From Cupriavidus sp. (lineage in GTDB: Bacteria > Pseudomonadota > Gammaproteobacteria > Burkholderiales > Burkholderiaceae), in the NCBI GenBank assembly GCA_031180665.1, contig JAPSLP010000018.1, positions 1 through 64,000 of the forward strand: a stretch of 64,000 nt of DNA, in the 5' to 3' direction. Below, piece by piece: positions 3,906-42,538 of this stretch; position 1 is the stretch's first letter, and each line of letters opens with the position of its first letter. The position numbers were made by a program, and so were the translations under genes. The notes beneath the pieces are model-generated. The model did not search any database. It was not told where the DNA came from and saw nothing but the letters and a program-made list of their open reading frames with translations.

Positions 3906-3912
3906 GTCCGGG

Positions 3913-4092
3913 CACAACCGGGGTACAACCGGGGGCATAACCGGGGGGCACAACCGGTGGCAGAAGCGGTGGCACAACCGGTGGCAGAAGCGGTGGCAGA
4001 AGCGGTGGCAGAAGCGGTGGCAGAACCGGGGGCAGAACCGGGGGCAGAACCGGGGGCAGAACCGGGGGCAGAACCGGGGGCAGAACCGGGGG
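3913..4092. repeat. 12-bp minisatellite array
   Basis: Fifteen units in tandem. From 3949 the period is exactly 12 bases for 12 units, in two sequence classes: CAGAAGCGGTGG-like units first, then six copies of CAGAACCGGGGG. Three diverged units with 11-13 base spacing precede them (3913-3948). The array starts right after the esterase stop and ends about 95 bases before the hemE start. A unit length divisible by three keeps spurious frames open on both strands. Confidence 0.95.
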
Positions 4093-4188
4093 CGCGGCGG
4101 GGGGCCGGAATCACGCGAGCGCCATACCGGTAATACTGGCGGCGGCGGTGTGGCGATCCCGTAGAATGGCGGGCTGACGAGGACCACC

Positions 4189-5289
4189 ATGACCGCACTG
4201 CAGAACGACATCTTCCTGCGCGCGCTGCGCCGCCAGCCGACCGAATACACGCCGCTATGGCTGATGCGCCAGGCCGGGCGCTATCTGCCCGAGTACAACG
4301 CCACGCGCGCACGGGCCGGCAGCTTTCTGGGCCTGGCCAAGAACCCCGCGTTTGCCACCGAAGTCACCCTGCAGCCGCTCGAGCGCTTTGCGCTCGACGC
4401 CGCGATCCTGTTCTCTGACATCCTGACCGTACCCGACGCGATGGGCCTCGGCCTGTCCTTCGCCCAGGGCGAGGGCCCGCGCTTCGCGCGGCCGCTGCGC
4501 ACCGAAGCTGACGTCGCCAGGCTGGCCGTACCCGACATGGGGGAACTGCAGTACGTCTTCGACGCCGTCGCCTCGATCCGCAAAGCGCTGATGCAGGACG
4601 GCCGCCAACGCGTGCCGCTGATCGGCTTCTCCGGCAGCCCGTGGACGCTGGCCTGCTACATGGTCGAAGGGGGCGGCTCGGACGACTTCCGGCTGGTCAA
4701 GGGCATGATGTACGCCCGTCCGGACCTGATGCACCGGATCCTGGAGATCAATGCACAGGCCGTGTCGGCCTATCTGAACGCGCAGATCGAGGCCGGCGCC
4801 CAGGCCGTGATGTTGTTCGATACCTGGGGCGGCACGCTGGCCGACGGCATGTACCAACGCTTCTCGCTGGACTACATGCGCAAGGTCATCGCCGGCCTGC
4901 GCCGCGAGTACCAGGGCGAGAGCGTGCCGGTGATCGTCTTTACCAAGGGCGGCGGCCTGTGGCTGGAGCAGCTGGCCGACAGCGGCGCCGACGCCATCGG
5001 CCTGGACTGGACCGTGAACCTGGCCGCCGCACGCCGGCGCACCGGCGGTCGCGTGGCCCTGCAGGGCAATCTGGATCCGACCGTGCTGTTCGCGGACGAG
5101 GCCGGCATCCGCGAACAGGCCCGCCGCGTGCTGGACGATTACGCCGCCGGCGGCGGCAGCGACGGCCATGTCTTCAACCTCGGACATGGCATCTCGCAAT
5201 TCACGCCGCCCGAGAGCGTGTCGGTACTGGTCGACGAAGTGCATCGCCACAGCCGCGCGCTGCGGCAGCGCGAGGGCGCTCCGGCATAG
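4189..5289 (+). CDS. hemE: Uroporphyrinogen III decarboxylase
   Basis: Converts uroporphyrinogen III to coproporphyrinogen III by four decarboxylations, in the cytoplasmic haem pathway. The 366-residue length is typical. The signature [11 protein letters not shown] (residues 26-36) carries the substrate-binding arginines, and [14 protein letters not shown] carries the catalytic aspartate. [23 protein letters not shown] and the C-terminal FNLGHGI follow in the family order. The ATG is preceded by GAGGA. It lies between a minisatellite and priA and appears to be transcribed on its own. Confidence 0.98.
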
Positions 5290-27116: not shown

Positions 27117-27171
27117 AAAAAAAGGGTCATCCGTCGCGCGGCTCGGTAAGAACCGTCGCGACGGATGACCC
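27117..27171 (-). terminator. Riboswitch-controlled intrinsic terminator before gcvT
   Basis: Read on the minus strand, two perfectly complementary 15-base arms (GGGTCATCCGTCGCG and CGCGACGGATGACCC, at 27171-27157 and 27138-27124) are followed at once by a run of seven T residues. The hairpin lies between the glycine aptamers and gcvT, so it is very probably the expression platform: transcription stops unless glycine binding prevents the hairpin. Confidence 0.88.
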
Positions 27172-27180
27172 CCTCTGTCC

Positions 27181-27437
27181 TCGATACCTGAGAGATTACG
27201 GCCGGCCTTGCTGCCCTTGTCGGACTCGCTGGCCACACCGTGCGCCCCTTCGGTGGACACGCTCATCATCCAATTGATGAATGACGGGTGTCGCTCTCCA
27301 GAGTTCGGCATACATCGTGTGCATGCTGCGAGTACACGAAATGCGCGATCCGCCCGGTCCATGGTGCCTGAGAGTTTTCGGGTGATTCCCCTTCGGCGGC
27401 GCGAATGACGATACAGTCGCGCGCTCTCCCGGACGGA
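27181..27437 (-). ncRNA. Tandem glycine riboswitch
   Basis: Two glycine aptamers in series on the minus strand. Aptamer I (about 27437-27360) starts with GGGAGAGC, contains CCGAAGGGG and closes with ACTCTCAGGCACC. Aptamer II (about 27304-27183) starts with CTGGAGAGC, contains CACCGAAGGGGC and closes with ATCTCTCAGGTATC. These are the conserved blocks of the glycine riboswitch family. It precedes gcvT and a terminator hairpin, the classical arrangement for turning on glycine cleavage when glycine is abundant. Confidence 0.95.
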
Positions 27438-27444
27438 TGGCGCG

Positions 27445-34970: not shown

Positions 34971-34993
34971 GGTGGCGGCACGCCCCCCTGGCC

Positions 34994-35262
34994 ACTCGCC
35001 CCTCGCTCCCACGCCTCTCGTCCCTTCGCCCCTCTCGCCCCTCGCCCCTCGCCCCTCGCCCCTCTCGCCCCTCGCCCCTCGCCCCTCGCCACTCGCCCCT
35101 CGCCCCTCGCCCCTCGCCCCTCGCCCCTCGCCCCTCGCCCCTCGCCCCTCGACCCGTCGCCCCTCGGCCCCTCGGCCCCTCGGCCCCTCGGCCCCTCACC
35201 CCTCACCCCTCACTCCTCACCCCTCACCCCTCACCCCTCACCCCTCACCCCTCACCCCTCCG
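34994..35262. repeat. Heptanucleotide tandem array (CCCCTCG/CCCCTCA)
   Basis: Roughly 35 short units in tandem over about 270 bases. Most are 7 bases, CCCCTCG first and CCCCTCA later, with a patch of 8-base units (CCCCTCGG) around 35160-35200. One strand is almost purely pyrimidine. It fills the gap between arfB and the MFS gene and ends about 100 bases before the latter's start. Confidence 0.95.
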
Positions 35263-40495: not shown

Positions 40496-40915
40496 ATGAC
40501 CGCATCCGCTTCGCAGCAGCCCACGCTGTACCTGACCGAACTCGACGTGACCCGACTGGAGCGCATCGCCAGCCGCGCCCCCGCCAACGGCATCGCCGAG
40601 ATGCTGGACGACCTGCTGGCGCGCGCGGCAATCGTGCCGCCCGACGCGATCCCGCAGGACGTGGTGACGATGAACTCGACGGTGCGCTGCGCGCTGGAAG
40701 GCGACCCCGCGCCGCGCGAGTGGACGCTGGTGTACCCGGACAACGCGGACTTCGAGGCGGGCCGGATCTCGGTGTTTTCGCCGGTCGGCCAGGCGCTGCT
40801 GGGTGCCCGGGCCGGGGAGTCGGTCAGCTACCGGCTGCCGGACGGTCGCGAGCAGCGGGTGACGGTGCTCGAGCTGTCCTATCAGCCCGAGGCCAACGGC
40901 CAGTTCACGCTGTAG
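40496..40915 (+). CDS. rnk: Rnk-type nucleoside diphosphate kinase regulator (GreA/GreB C-terminal fold)
   Basis: A 139-residue protein of the Rnk family, which binds RNA polymerase near the secondary channel but lacks the long coiled coil of GreA. An N-terminal short helical domain (ELDVTRLERIASRAP) precedes the GreA/GreB C-terminal domain (VYPDNADFEAGRISVFSPVG to QRVTVLELSYQPEA). AGGAG precedes the ATG. Named for its effect on nucleoside diphosphate kinase in E. coli. Confidence 0.92.
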   Translation: MTASASQQPTLYLTELDVTRLERIASRAPANGIAEMLDDLLARAAIVPPDAIPQDVVTMNSTVRCALEGDPAPREWTLVYPDNADFEAGRISVFSPVGQALLGARAGESVSYRLPDGREQRVTVLELSYQPEANGQFTL

Positions 40916-41141
40916 TTCACGCTGTAAAGGGTCGGCCGCCCGGCCCGCGGCGCCTCGTTGGGGGCGCCGCTTGTTCCGCCACGTTGTCGTTTCACGGCGC
41001 ACAACTCACCGTTCGTCGCAGCCCCATTTGTGGCCGCAAGGCCAGGGACTAACCTTCAACCCGTGCTCACATGGCGACATAGATCGCCCAGGGGCAGCAG
41101 GTAGCTGACACATAAATAAAGCTCAGTTGAAGGAGTCCCAA

Positions 41142-41495
41142 ATGATCACCAGCCGTATCATCGGCGGCGCGTTGGCCGTCATCGTGGCTGCGACCTCGGC
41201 CGTTGCCGTGGCCGCGCCCGCTACCTCGAGCAAGGTCGGCAAGTTCGACGTCTATGCCGATGCGCTGCGCTCCGGCAAGTTCAACACCTTCACGGACGGC
41301 GCCCGCCAGGGCAAGTTCGATACCTTCAGCGAAGGCGCGCGCCAGGGCCAGTTCGATCCCTATAGCGAAGGCAGCCGCCAGGGCCAGTTCGACACTTTCA
41401 GCGAAGGCGCCCGTGCGCCGAGCGGCGAAATTGCCGCCTCCTCGCTGGACAATGCCCGCAGCGGCGACGGCACGCTGTACGGCTATCGCGTCTGA
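41142..41495 (+). CDS. Small exported protein with five 12-residue repeats
   Basis: A 117-residue protein with a clear Sec signal peptide (MITSRIIGGALAVIVAATSA, cleavage after AVA-A near residue 30). The mature part is five tandem 12-residue units of consensus KFDTFSEGARQG, from KFDVYADALRSG to QFDTFSEGARAP (about residues 34-93), followed by a short tail ending YGYRV. The DNA repeats with a 36-base period. AAGGAG lies upstream of the ATG at 41142. I do not recognise the family; location should be periplasmic or extracellular. It stands alone between rnk and the zinc peptidase and has its own terminator. Confidence 0.8.
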   Translation: MITSRIIGGALAVIVAATSAVAVAAPATSSKVGKFDVYADALRSGKFNTFTDGARQGKFDTFSEGARQGQFDPYSEGSRQGQFDTFSEGARAPSGEIAASSLDNARSGDGTLYGYRV

Positions 41496-41569
41496 CGTCG
41501 CGCCGGCGCCGCGTCCCGCGTGGCCCCGCCGGGCCACCGCCACGCAAGCGCGCCGGCCGCACCGGTTTA

Positions 41570-41634
41570 TCTCCCACCTGCCCGGTTGACCTCCTTTCCT
41601 CCTTCTCTCTCTCTCCGGGTGGGTGTTTTTTATT
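41570..41634 (+). terminator. Probable terminator of the repeat-protein gene
   Basis: CCCACCTGCCCGG pairs imperfectly with CCGGGTGGGTG across a pyrimidine-rich loop of about 33 bases, and is followed by a T run (GTTTTTTATT). The long loop makes it less certain than the others. Confidence 0.6.
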
Positions 41635-41668
41635 CCACAGGTCCGCGGCCGATCGAGCGCGCCGGTCG

Positions 41669-42538
41669 TTACAGCTGGCGCGCCGCGAAGGCGTCGCAGC
41701 GGCCGATATCCGCCGATTCGAGCCCGCGCCGCAGCCAGCGGACCCGCTGCTCGCTGGTGCCGTGCGTGAAGGCTTCGGGCACGACATAGCCTTGCGACTG
41801 GCGCTGCAGCCGGTCGTCGCCGATCGCGGCAGCGGCCTGCAGCCCCTCTTCGATATCCCCGGGTTCGAGCAACTGCTGATTCGCCCGTTGCGCGGCCGCG
41901 GCCCACACTCCGGCCAGGCAATCGGCCTGCAGCTCCATCCGCACCGACAGCTGATTGGCCTGCGCCTCGCCCATGCGGCGGCGCGCGCTGTCGACCTTGT
42001 CGGCCACGCCGAGCAGGTGCTGCACATGGTGGCCGACCTCGTGCGCGATCACATAGGCCTGGGCGAAGTCGCCAGCCGCGCCGAAGCGCTTGCGCAGTTC
42101 GTCGTAGAACGCCAGGTCGATATAGACCTTCTGGTCGGCCGGGCAATAGAACGGTCCCATCGCGGACTGGCCCATGCCGCAGGCGGTCTGCGTCGCGCCG
42201 GTGAACAGCACCAGCGTCGGCGGCTCGTAGCGCCGGTTCAGCTCGGTTTCGAACAGCCGCGACCAGGTGCGCTCGGTGCTGCCGAGCACCTTGCGCACGA
42301 ACACGGACATGGGATCGTTGGCGGGCGGGCCCTGGGTGGCCTGCTGCTGCGGGGCCTCGGACTGCTGCAGCACCGAGGCGCCCTGCATGATCACGGTGGG
42401 ATCGATGCCGAAGAAGTACGAGGCGGCGAGGGCGATCAGGATCGTGCCGATGCCGATCGTCTTGCGACCGGCTCCGAAGCCCCTGCCACCTCGCCGGTCT
42501 TCCACATGTTGGCTTTCGGCTTCGTCGTCAAGGCGCAT
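41669..42538 (-). CDS. YpfJ-type neutral zinc metallopeptidase
   Basis: A 289-residue member of the Zn_peptidase (PF04228) family. One membrane helix near the N terminus (residues 28-45) places the catalytic domain in the periplasm. The catalytic HEVGHH is at residues 166-171, preceded by CGMGQSAMGPFYCPADQKVY with two cysteines likely to form a disulfide, and followed by ELQADCLAGVWA with the third ligand. Physiological substrate unknown. Downstream of pyk on the same strand. Confidence 0.92.
   Translation of the reverse strand: MRLDDEAESQHVEDRRGGRGFGAGRKTIGIGTILIALAASYFFGIDPTVIMQGASVLQQSEAPQQQATQGPPANDPMSVFVRKVLGSTERTWSRLFETELNRRYEPPTLVLFTGATQTACGMGQSAMGPFYCPADQKVYIDLAFYDELRKRFGAAGDFAQAYVIAHEVGHHVQHLLGVADKVDSARRRMGEAQANQLSVRMELQADCLAGVWAAAAQRANQQLLEPGDIEEGLQAAAAIGDDRLQRQSQGYVVPEAFTHGTSEQRVRWLRRGLESADIGRCDAFAARQL

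Follow-up and report, generated by a model that had tools for sequence, protein, structure and literature searches.

The closest described relatives of the gene studied here are the CopQ-like proteins of Cupriavidus metallidurans, among them CopQ, CzcJ, MmrQ, MmmQ and PrsQ. According to the accessible text of the 2010 description, CzcJ, MmrQ and CopQ have both a signal sequence and RDXXTDG motifs set apart by defined spacers, worded there as a unit repeated 3–4 times with fixed spacers, and MmmQ, MmtQ and MmsQ have domains similar to those of CzcJ, MmrQ and CopQ (PMC2864759). The same text reports that CopQ-like genes are metal-induced in C. metallidurans, that induction within the family varies and overlaps instead of being specific to single metals, and that BLAST at that time placed these proteins in Cupriavidus and Ralstonia only (PMC2864759). 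Some CopQ-like genes rank among those that metals induce most strongly in C. metallidurans. A 2020 publication, in the part that is accessible, counted 21 copQ homologs in strain CH34 and called the family poorly characterised (PMC7563307). In strain NA4, the silver resistance of mutant NA4S depends on PrsQ1 and PrsQ2, labelled "CopQ-like", and prsQ2 is up 507-fold in that mutant (PMC7380067, available text).

The gene lies in the window, by which we mean the whole 64,000-nucleotide stretch of Cupriavidus DNA that was analysed. By sequence, it is a further member of this little-understood family. Like CzcJ (Rmet_5975, on CH34 plasmid pMOL30) and CopQ (Rmet_6121), its product is small, Cys-free and probably exported, and contains units of roughly 12 residues in tandem, patterned on D-x-[FY]-[ST]-[DE]-G. 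The czcJ and copQ genes are plasmid-borne beside the czc and cop genes and encode RD-x-[FY]-TDG units, whereas the window gene is core chromosomal, encodes FD units and, unlike them, has its own conserved upstream region, an LYGYxV tail and a 3' hairpin (Table 1). PrsQ1 and PrsQ2 are set beside it by description, through the label given in their publication. The original prediction knew of no named family with this repeat, a view overturned by the homology to CzcJ and by a family in print since 2010 (PMC2864759, accessible text). A search for the ancestral function, apart from the plasmid metal clusters, could naturally begin with a core copy that has a conserved control region of its own, and the conserved 3' hairpin makes the locus worth an experiment.

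Table 1. Features of the repeat-protein locus and its neighbours, in window coordinates
Feature	Position	Strand	Basis
rnk-like upstream neighbour	40496..40915	+	GreA/GreB C-terminal domain; Rnk_N 21.2 bits, just under the cut-off of 23.7
Upstream conserved block	40988..41021	+	93% mean identity, 35 orthologs
Second conserved upstream block	41048..41082	+	Ortholog upstream alignment
15-mer CAGTTGAAGGAGTCC with Shine-Dalgarno AAGGAG (41130-41135)	41124..41138	+	Invariant in 35/35 orthologs
CDS, CopQ-like repeat protein, 117 aa + stop	41142..41495	+	ATG start; ortholog alignment, purifying selection
Probable export signal, residues 1 to ~25	41142..41216	+	By reading; AAPA conserved, 30 orthologs
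Repeat unit 1, GKFDVYADALRS	41238..41273	+	Degenerate as repeat
Repeat units 2-5, 12 residues each	41274..41417	+	Tandem Repeats Finder, unit comparison
C-terminal tail, roughly DNxRxG(D/E)...LYGYxV among orthologs	41418..41492	+	Ortholog alignment
3' hairpin and U6, preceded by UUUAUCUCCC	41564..41631	+	Folding, covariation, covariance model
Hairpin arms	41575-41585 and 41615-41625	+	Folding, alignment
CU-rich hairpin loop	41586-41614	+	Folding, alignment
Convergent downstream neighbour, putative neutral zinc metallopeptidase	41669..42538	-	PF04228

Family membership and range of the locus

A search with the window protein gave 14 matching places in the genome it comes from and 21 in C. metallidurans CH34 (G031), counted up to an E-value of 1 and with some places being parts of one gene. 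The CH34 matches include czcJ at E 7e-11. One of them lies at pMOL30 85567–85845, near czcE, and is czcJ, because the published czcJ transcription starts at 85892 and 85937, which are 47 and 92 bp upstream of Rmet_5975, fit that gene (PMC9045368, available text). Profile A2 recovers the window gene at 6.4e-27, the query itself being a row of A2. Neither the window protein, which has five 12-residue units, nor a near-identical pair in CH34 (L045 and L046) contains RDXXTDG as a literal string; from the near-identity and replicon of this pair we infer that it is mmsQ and mmsQ1, members named in the accessible text of PMC2864759. A Pfam search of the window protein returned no family, and a Pfam search of the 32 members of alignment A6 returned only chance-like matches, in 3, 1 and 1 members. 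Three NCBIfam models for FliH scored 13–17 bits against cut-offs of 180–293 and were rejected as repeat composition; a sequence search of the PDB gave nothing credible, with one match at E 0.52.

In a first sample (E up to 0.01), all 36 genomes of the genus match and none of 24 others of the order. Matches were found in 57 of 299 genomes of the taxonomic family, comprising 40 Cupriavidus, 16 Ralstonia and 1 of another genus, the last a weak exception at E 6e-5. A search of 399 genomes of the order with the family profile gave matches in 3, all Cupriavidus. The best 80 of 170 named relatives come from Cupriavidus, Ralstonia or records titled only Burkholderiaceae, and the plasmid matches by tblastn came from 19 records, every one of them Cupriavidus.

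An ortholog of the window gene itself is present in all 35 near-complete genus genomes examined (30 in alignment A1 and 5 more); in the 36th, G012, which is 54% complete, only another family member was found. The window gene is the genus-core chromosomal copy, at a Cupriavidus core locus rather than in a plasmid metal cluster. It is flanked by an rnk-like gene and by a convergent peptidase gene that we take to be ypfJ. The rnk locus was obtained from 15 of 16 Ralstonia genomes; by pattern, all 15 are without the gene, the upstream block and the hairpin loop in the sequence covered, which in three of them extends less than 700 bases downstream. In the literature covered by our search we found no publication on an ortholog of the window gene or on the sRNA considered below; under the prefix Rmet_342x–344x the search returned the sox cluster only. 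At the end of the rnk-like gene, the sequence around the stop codon is duplicated in tandem (window 40902–40926, AGTTCACGCTGT twice), and the same spot in locus L009 looks further expanded.

Repeat units and predicted properties of the protein

The repeat frame described in the original prediction is real, with N-terminus, units and tail all present. The ratios of computed dN and dS among the three closest orthologs are about 0.15, 0.18 and 0.06, low values which indicate that the frame is under purifying selection as a protein. The window protein is 95–97% identical to the orthologs of G202, G033 and G020. Its N-terminus is hydrophobic and, by reading, ends in ...VAVAAPA; the conservation of AAPA in the orthologs agrees with the signal peptide that had been proposed. 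The 12-residue units are, in order, GKFDVYADALRS, GKFNTFTDGARQ, GKFDTFSEGARQ, GQFDPYSEGSRQ and GQFDTFSEGARA. Units 2–5 have 5–10 of 12 positions in common with one another, and unit 1 has 4–5 of 12 in common with the others. The earlier description of five near-identical units was therefore slightly generous: the 12-residue repeat stands and units 2–5 are alike, but unit 1 is degenerate. Identities at lag 12 number 31 of 80, whereas 10,000 shuffles averaged 5.9 and never exceeded 18, and Tandem Repeats Finder reports 36 bp × 3.9 at 41274–41413. The GKF-VYADA stretch of unit 1 is almost invariant among 30 orthologs. A comparison of unit number, which had been suggested as a check, found about four to six units depending on the species (alignment A1, the same 30 orthologs).

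The mature part contains neither Cys nor Trp in 27 of 27 members from the window's own genome, CH34, pHG1 and Ralstonia, with the mature start guessed by rule. Among 75 further relatives, counted from 80 loci of which 5 gave no usable frame, 73 have no Cys and 2 have Trp; both Cys-bearing relatives carry the residue in odd C-terminal tails, in one case after a masked run. His is present in 33 of these 75, and their mean net charge per residue is 0.02. The mature window protein has no Cys, His or Met, and its basic residues are nearly as many as its acidic ones; 16 of the 30 orthologs are without His. AlphaFold2 gave a mean pLDDT of 51.1 with the ortholog alignment and 49.4 with a diverse alignment, both inputs being shallow and repetitive. 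A charge-hydropathy plot places the window protein at the border (0.412 vs 0.417) and 21 of 30 orthologs on the disordered side. From these predictions we infer a disordered polyampholyte in the periplasm, and a disordered periplasmic stress protein appears likeliest. Hydrophilins and LEA-like proteins are Gly-rich, hydrophilic, predicted to be unfolded and linked to stress. The window protein is like them by description in all four respects, and differs from them in its probable export and in its regular repeats with aromatic residues.

Conserved upstream region and 3' hairpin

The upstream alignment is conserved in blocks, with 93% identity in columns 1–34, 47% in 45–60, 86% in 61–96 and 49% in 100–150. 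Mean pairwise identity reaches 99% around the ribosome-binding site (35 distinct upstream regions), where the AAGGAG inside the invariant 15-mer bears out the strong site that had been claimed; from this site the protein may be abundant, as had been proposed. A second 15-mer, CACCRTTCGTCGCAG, taken from the first block, occurs in 35 of 36 genus genomes (G012 being the exception) at one place per genome, apart from two in G019; the pattern read backwards, as a control, gave 4 places in the 36 genomes. The conservation of the block and the distribution of CACCRTTCGTCGCAG indicate that the gene has a private, conserved control region. The first block is likely an operator or activator site, and the second is likely the core promoter or the start of the leader. 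No consensus sigma-70 promoter scores in the upstream region. PrsQ2 is activated by AgrR (PMC7380067, available text); the window gene has no match to the AgrR box at <=3 mismatches in 40916–41141, and the whole window has 9 such matches vs 14.6 expected. A coding reading of the upstream region is ruled out by one-base indels in the second block of L017, L019 and L028. RNAalifold proposes 11 pairs in the upstream region, none changed on both sides, and we do not claim a leader structure.

Downstream of the frame, the sequence is variable until the hairpin block. Folding gives an 11-pair stem, a 29-base loop and then T6, so the terminator of the original prediction is indeed there; a simple terminator scan, which permits loops of 3–8 bases only, found none. 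When 34 orthologs (22 distinct rows) are aligned, 96.6% of stem cells pair in a stem of 12 pairs, and slid registers collapse to 27–51% paired. Five of the 12 pairs change on both sides (3.1 in shuffles, 4 of 500 reaching 5), and cells with a both-side change number 22 vs 6.6 (0 of 500), these shuffles ignoring the relatedness of the rows; further pair types show no excess, at 8 vs 9.0. RNAalifold recovers 10 of the stem pairs on its own. The loop is 99.5% identical vs 86% and 78% for the two arms, measured in 34 of the 35 orthologs over columns 25–47 with gaps left out. Rows were selected by the bases before and at the stem start, not by the loop; G016 did not pass this selection and is not among the rows; its loop has diverged but remains CU-rich. 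The CH34 loop differs by one base. These differences in CH34 and G016 indicate that the exact loop sequence is not essential. Loop length is 21–27 bases; in the window the 12th pair stays open and the loop has 29. Of the 36 genus genomes, 33 carry the 14-mer TCCTCCTTCTCTCT, which G012, G016 and, by one change, CH34 lack; G017 has it at two places, and the backward pattern gave 1 place. Upstream of the conserved element, at 41497–41561 after the stop codon, the transcript has another strong, GC-rich hairpin, whose sequence is not conserved among orthologs.

We searched a 200-genome sample of the taxonomic family with a covariance model of the hairpin, R1, under stricter filters. Exactly one place matched in each of 22 Cupriavidus genomes at E 3e-12 or better, 9 of these genomes not having been used in the model. 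Eight Ralstonia genomes matched more weakly (E 1e-6 to 2e-3), and there were three weak other matches (E 0.008–0.05). R1 matches 9 of the 16 Ralstonia genomes, the weakest with E 0.59. The other eight hairpins (L102–L109) have the common loop GTTACCTCCGTTCTCTCTCGAC, and the frame before the hairpin encodes an AcrB-type RND pump in 8 of 8 (PF00873, E 8e-58 or better), ending 0–80 bases before it in six loci, 425 bases in L102 and 311 bases in L105. In these loci the loop core has thus been retained, while the repeat gene is missing or degraded. By reading, the interval between RND gene and hairpin holds a short CopQ-like stretch in L102 and a possible CopQ-like remnant in L105.

Among 39 other stretches, mostly paralog loci, R1 found no match apart from L074, which is the G016 ortholog. 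Of 80 named loci, 79 gave no match, the exception being L161, an ortholog whose protein is 70% identical to that of the window. Rfam at the gathering score matched neither the window hairpin nor six related loci; the best weak match over 41535–41654, to the alphaproteobacterial sRNA ar7 (RF02342), has 16.7 bits vs a cut-off of 60 (E 0.78), far too low for membership. Paralog flanks have features of other kinds. On pHG1 of C. necator H16 (L039, about 4145–4235), the 3' flank of a CopQ-like paralog carries several C-rich stretches of the ACCTCCCC type ahead of a terminator and may be another C-rich 3' UTR, unrelated to this one. In CH34, a long simple AGTAGC-type repeat lies directly downstream of another paralog (L059).

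Roles proposed for the protein and the hairpin

The best explanation, which we hold tentatively and put a little short of an even chance, is that one mRNA gives an exported disordered shield protein and an sRNA derived from its 3' UTR. The product would be exported and would act, disordered, as a periplasmic "shield" under envelope or metal stress, being neither a folded enzyme nor a thiolate metal trap; a Cys-free, charge-balanced product that is unfolded in prediction points to such a role. Metal induction is known for paralogs rather than for the window gene (PMC2864759, accessible text). The 35 putative sRNAs reported in CH34 may include the hairpin sRNA (PMC7563307, accessible part). On the RNA side, the terminator hairpin would present a conserved CU-rich loop of anti-Shine-Dalgarno character, the 3' UTR would be processed into an sRNA fragment, and, during synthesis of the protein, the loop of that fragment would base-pair with ribosome-binding sites on other mRNAs and reduce the translation of those mRNAs. 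Within the window loop is ACCUCCUUUC, which we take to correspond to the anti-Shine-Dalgarno tail of 16S rRNA, and the core ACCUCC is common to the window and Ralstonia loops. The hairpin could be an unrecognised regulatory RNA; if so, it would constitute a Cupriavidus sRNA family not in Rfam and would link CopQ-like proteins to translational control. The fullest form of this reading is possible but rather doubtful: a single transcript would supply, as two products for stress, an exported and disordered protein of the CopQ-like family and a genus-wide sRNA of anti-Shine-Dalgarno type that is absent from Rfam. Were it true, envelope or metal stress would both shield the periplasm and retune translation.

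The CcsR sRNAs of Rhodobacter carry a CU-rich motif. In the CcaF1-CcsR1-4 system, RNase E releases stress sRNAs from the 3' UTR of an mRNA for a small protein (PMC8307010, accessible text). CcaF1 is a DUF1127 RNA-binding protein, whereas the window protein appears to be exported and its locus has one hairpin. Bordetella S17S is an RNase-E-processed, terminator-bearing sRNA that is complementary to ribosome-binding-site regions and anneals near such sites, and the long form, S17, may encode a small protein (PMC11722255, accessible text). Like the candidate described here, S17/S17S and the Burkholderia "toxic sRNA" bdhR1 (RF02278) are betaproteobacterial and terminator-bearing (PMC11722255, accessible text). 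S17 is likened to the window hairpin by description, not by sequence, and RF02278 matched neither the window nor six related loci at the gathering score, nor 40900–41700 at E up to 5.

For the protein, a periplasmic metal-ion buffer, acting as a low-affinity sponge through the repeated Asp/Glu and aromatic residues, would fit a metal-induced family with members in the czc and cop clusters (PMC2864759, accessible text). The acidic residues, the aromatic residue and Gly are the most constant positions of the unit, a constancy that is partly by construction since the units were picked with a pattern fixing them, and the units of the pMOL30 protein that gene order points to as CopQ include His and Met. 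We nevertheless consider a buffer unlikely, given the lack of Cys, His and Met after the signal in the window protein, its near balance of basic and acidic residues, and the varied, overlapping induction of the family noted above. Similar units with basic residues at their borders also bring to mind a precursor cut into identical secreted 12-mer peptides. This is hardly credible: the units vary both between and within orthologs, neither adjacent gene is an exporter, though one encodes a putative zinc peptidase, and no family member is so described in the literature covered, in its accessible parts.

For the hairpin, the main rival of the sRNA reading is a terminator with an oddly conserved loop, kept for a reason unrelated to a trans-acting RNA, for example interaction with RNA polymerase, Rho or an RNase, or mRNA stability. 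The stem and T6 lie exactly at the expected mRNA end, and the eight Ralstonia hairpins stand behind an AcrB-type gene as a reused terminator might; we regard this as quite possible, at clearly less than an even chance. Terminator loops are normally short and free to vary, whereas this long loop is more conserved than its stem, and of 13 terminator-like places found by a crude scan of 26 paralog 3' flanks, 10 have final loops of 3–6 bases. Autoregulation is improbable: the CUCCUUC of the loop is complementary to GAAGGAG of the invariant 15-mer, so that the loop might pair with the gene's own ribosome-binding-site region and limit its own translation, but this amounts to only 7 pairs at -11.3 kcal/mol, a value reached by 20% of 300 shuffled loops, and the match is lost in CH34 and G016 with the ribosome-binding site unchanged. 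Still less probable is an antisense element: it would lie in the 3' UTR of the mRNA from the convergent peptidase gene, and its loop could bind CsrA-type proteins. The antisense loop does read AGGAGG, with GGA motifs in it, and 41669 is where the peptidase gene ends, but a T-run follows the stem only on the + strand, and G-U cells weakly favour that strand (5 on + and 3 on -).

Elsewhere in the window, two adjacent glycine riboswitch aptamers (Rfam RF00504) lie at 27165–27441 on the - strand, a tandem arrangement that is usual for these aptamers. At 3910–4093, a 12-bp repeat, GGGCAGAACCGG, is present in about 15 copies between two ORFs that are presumably alpha/beta-hydrolase-like and hemE-like. 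A heptamer array of about 38 copies of CCCCTCG, drifting to CCCCTCA, occupies 34985–35260, inside the 5' part of a long transporter-like frame.
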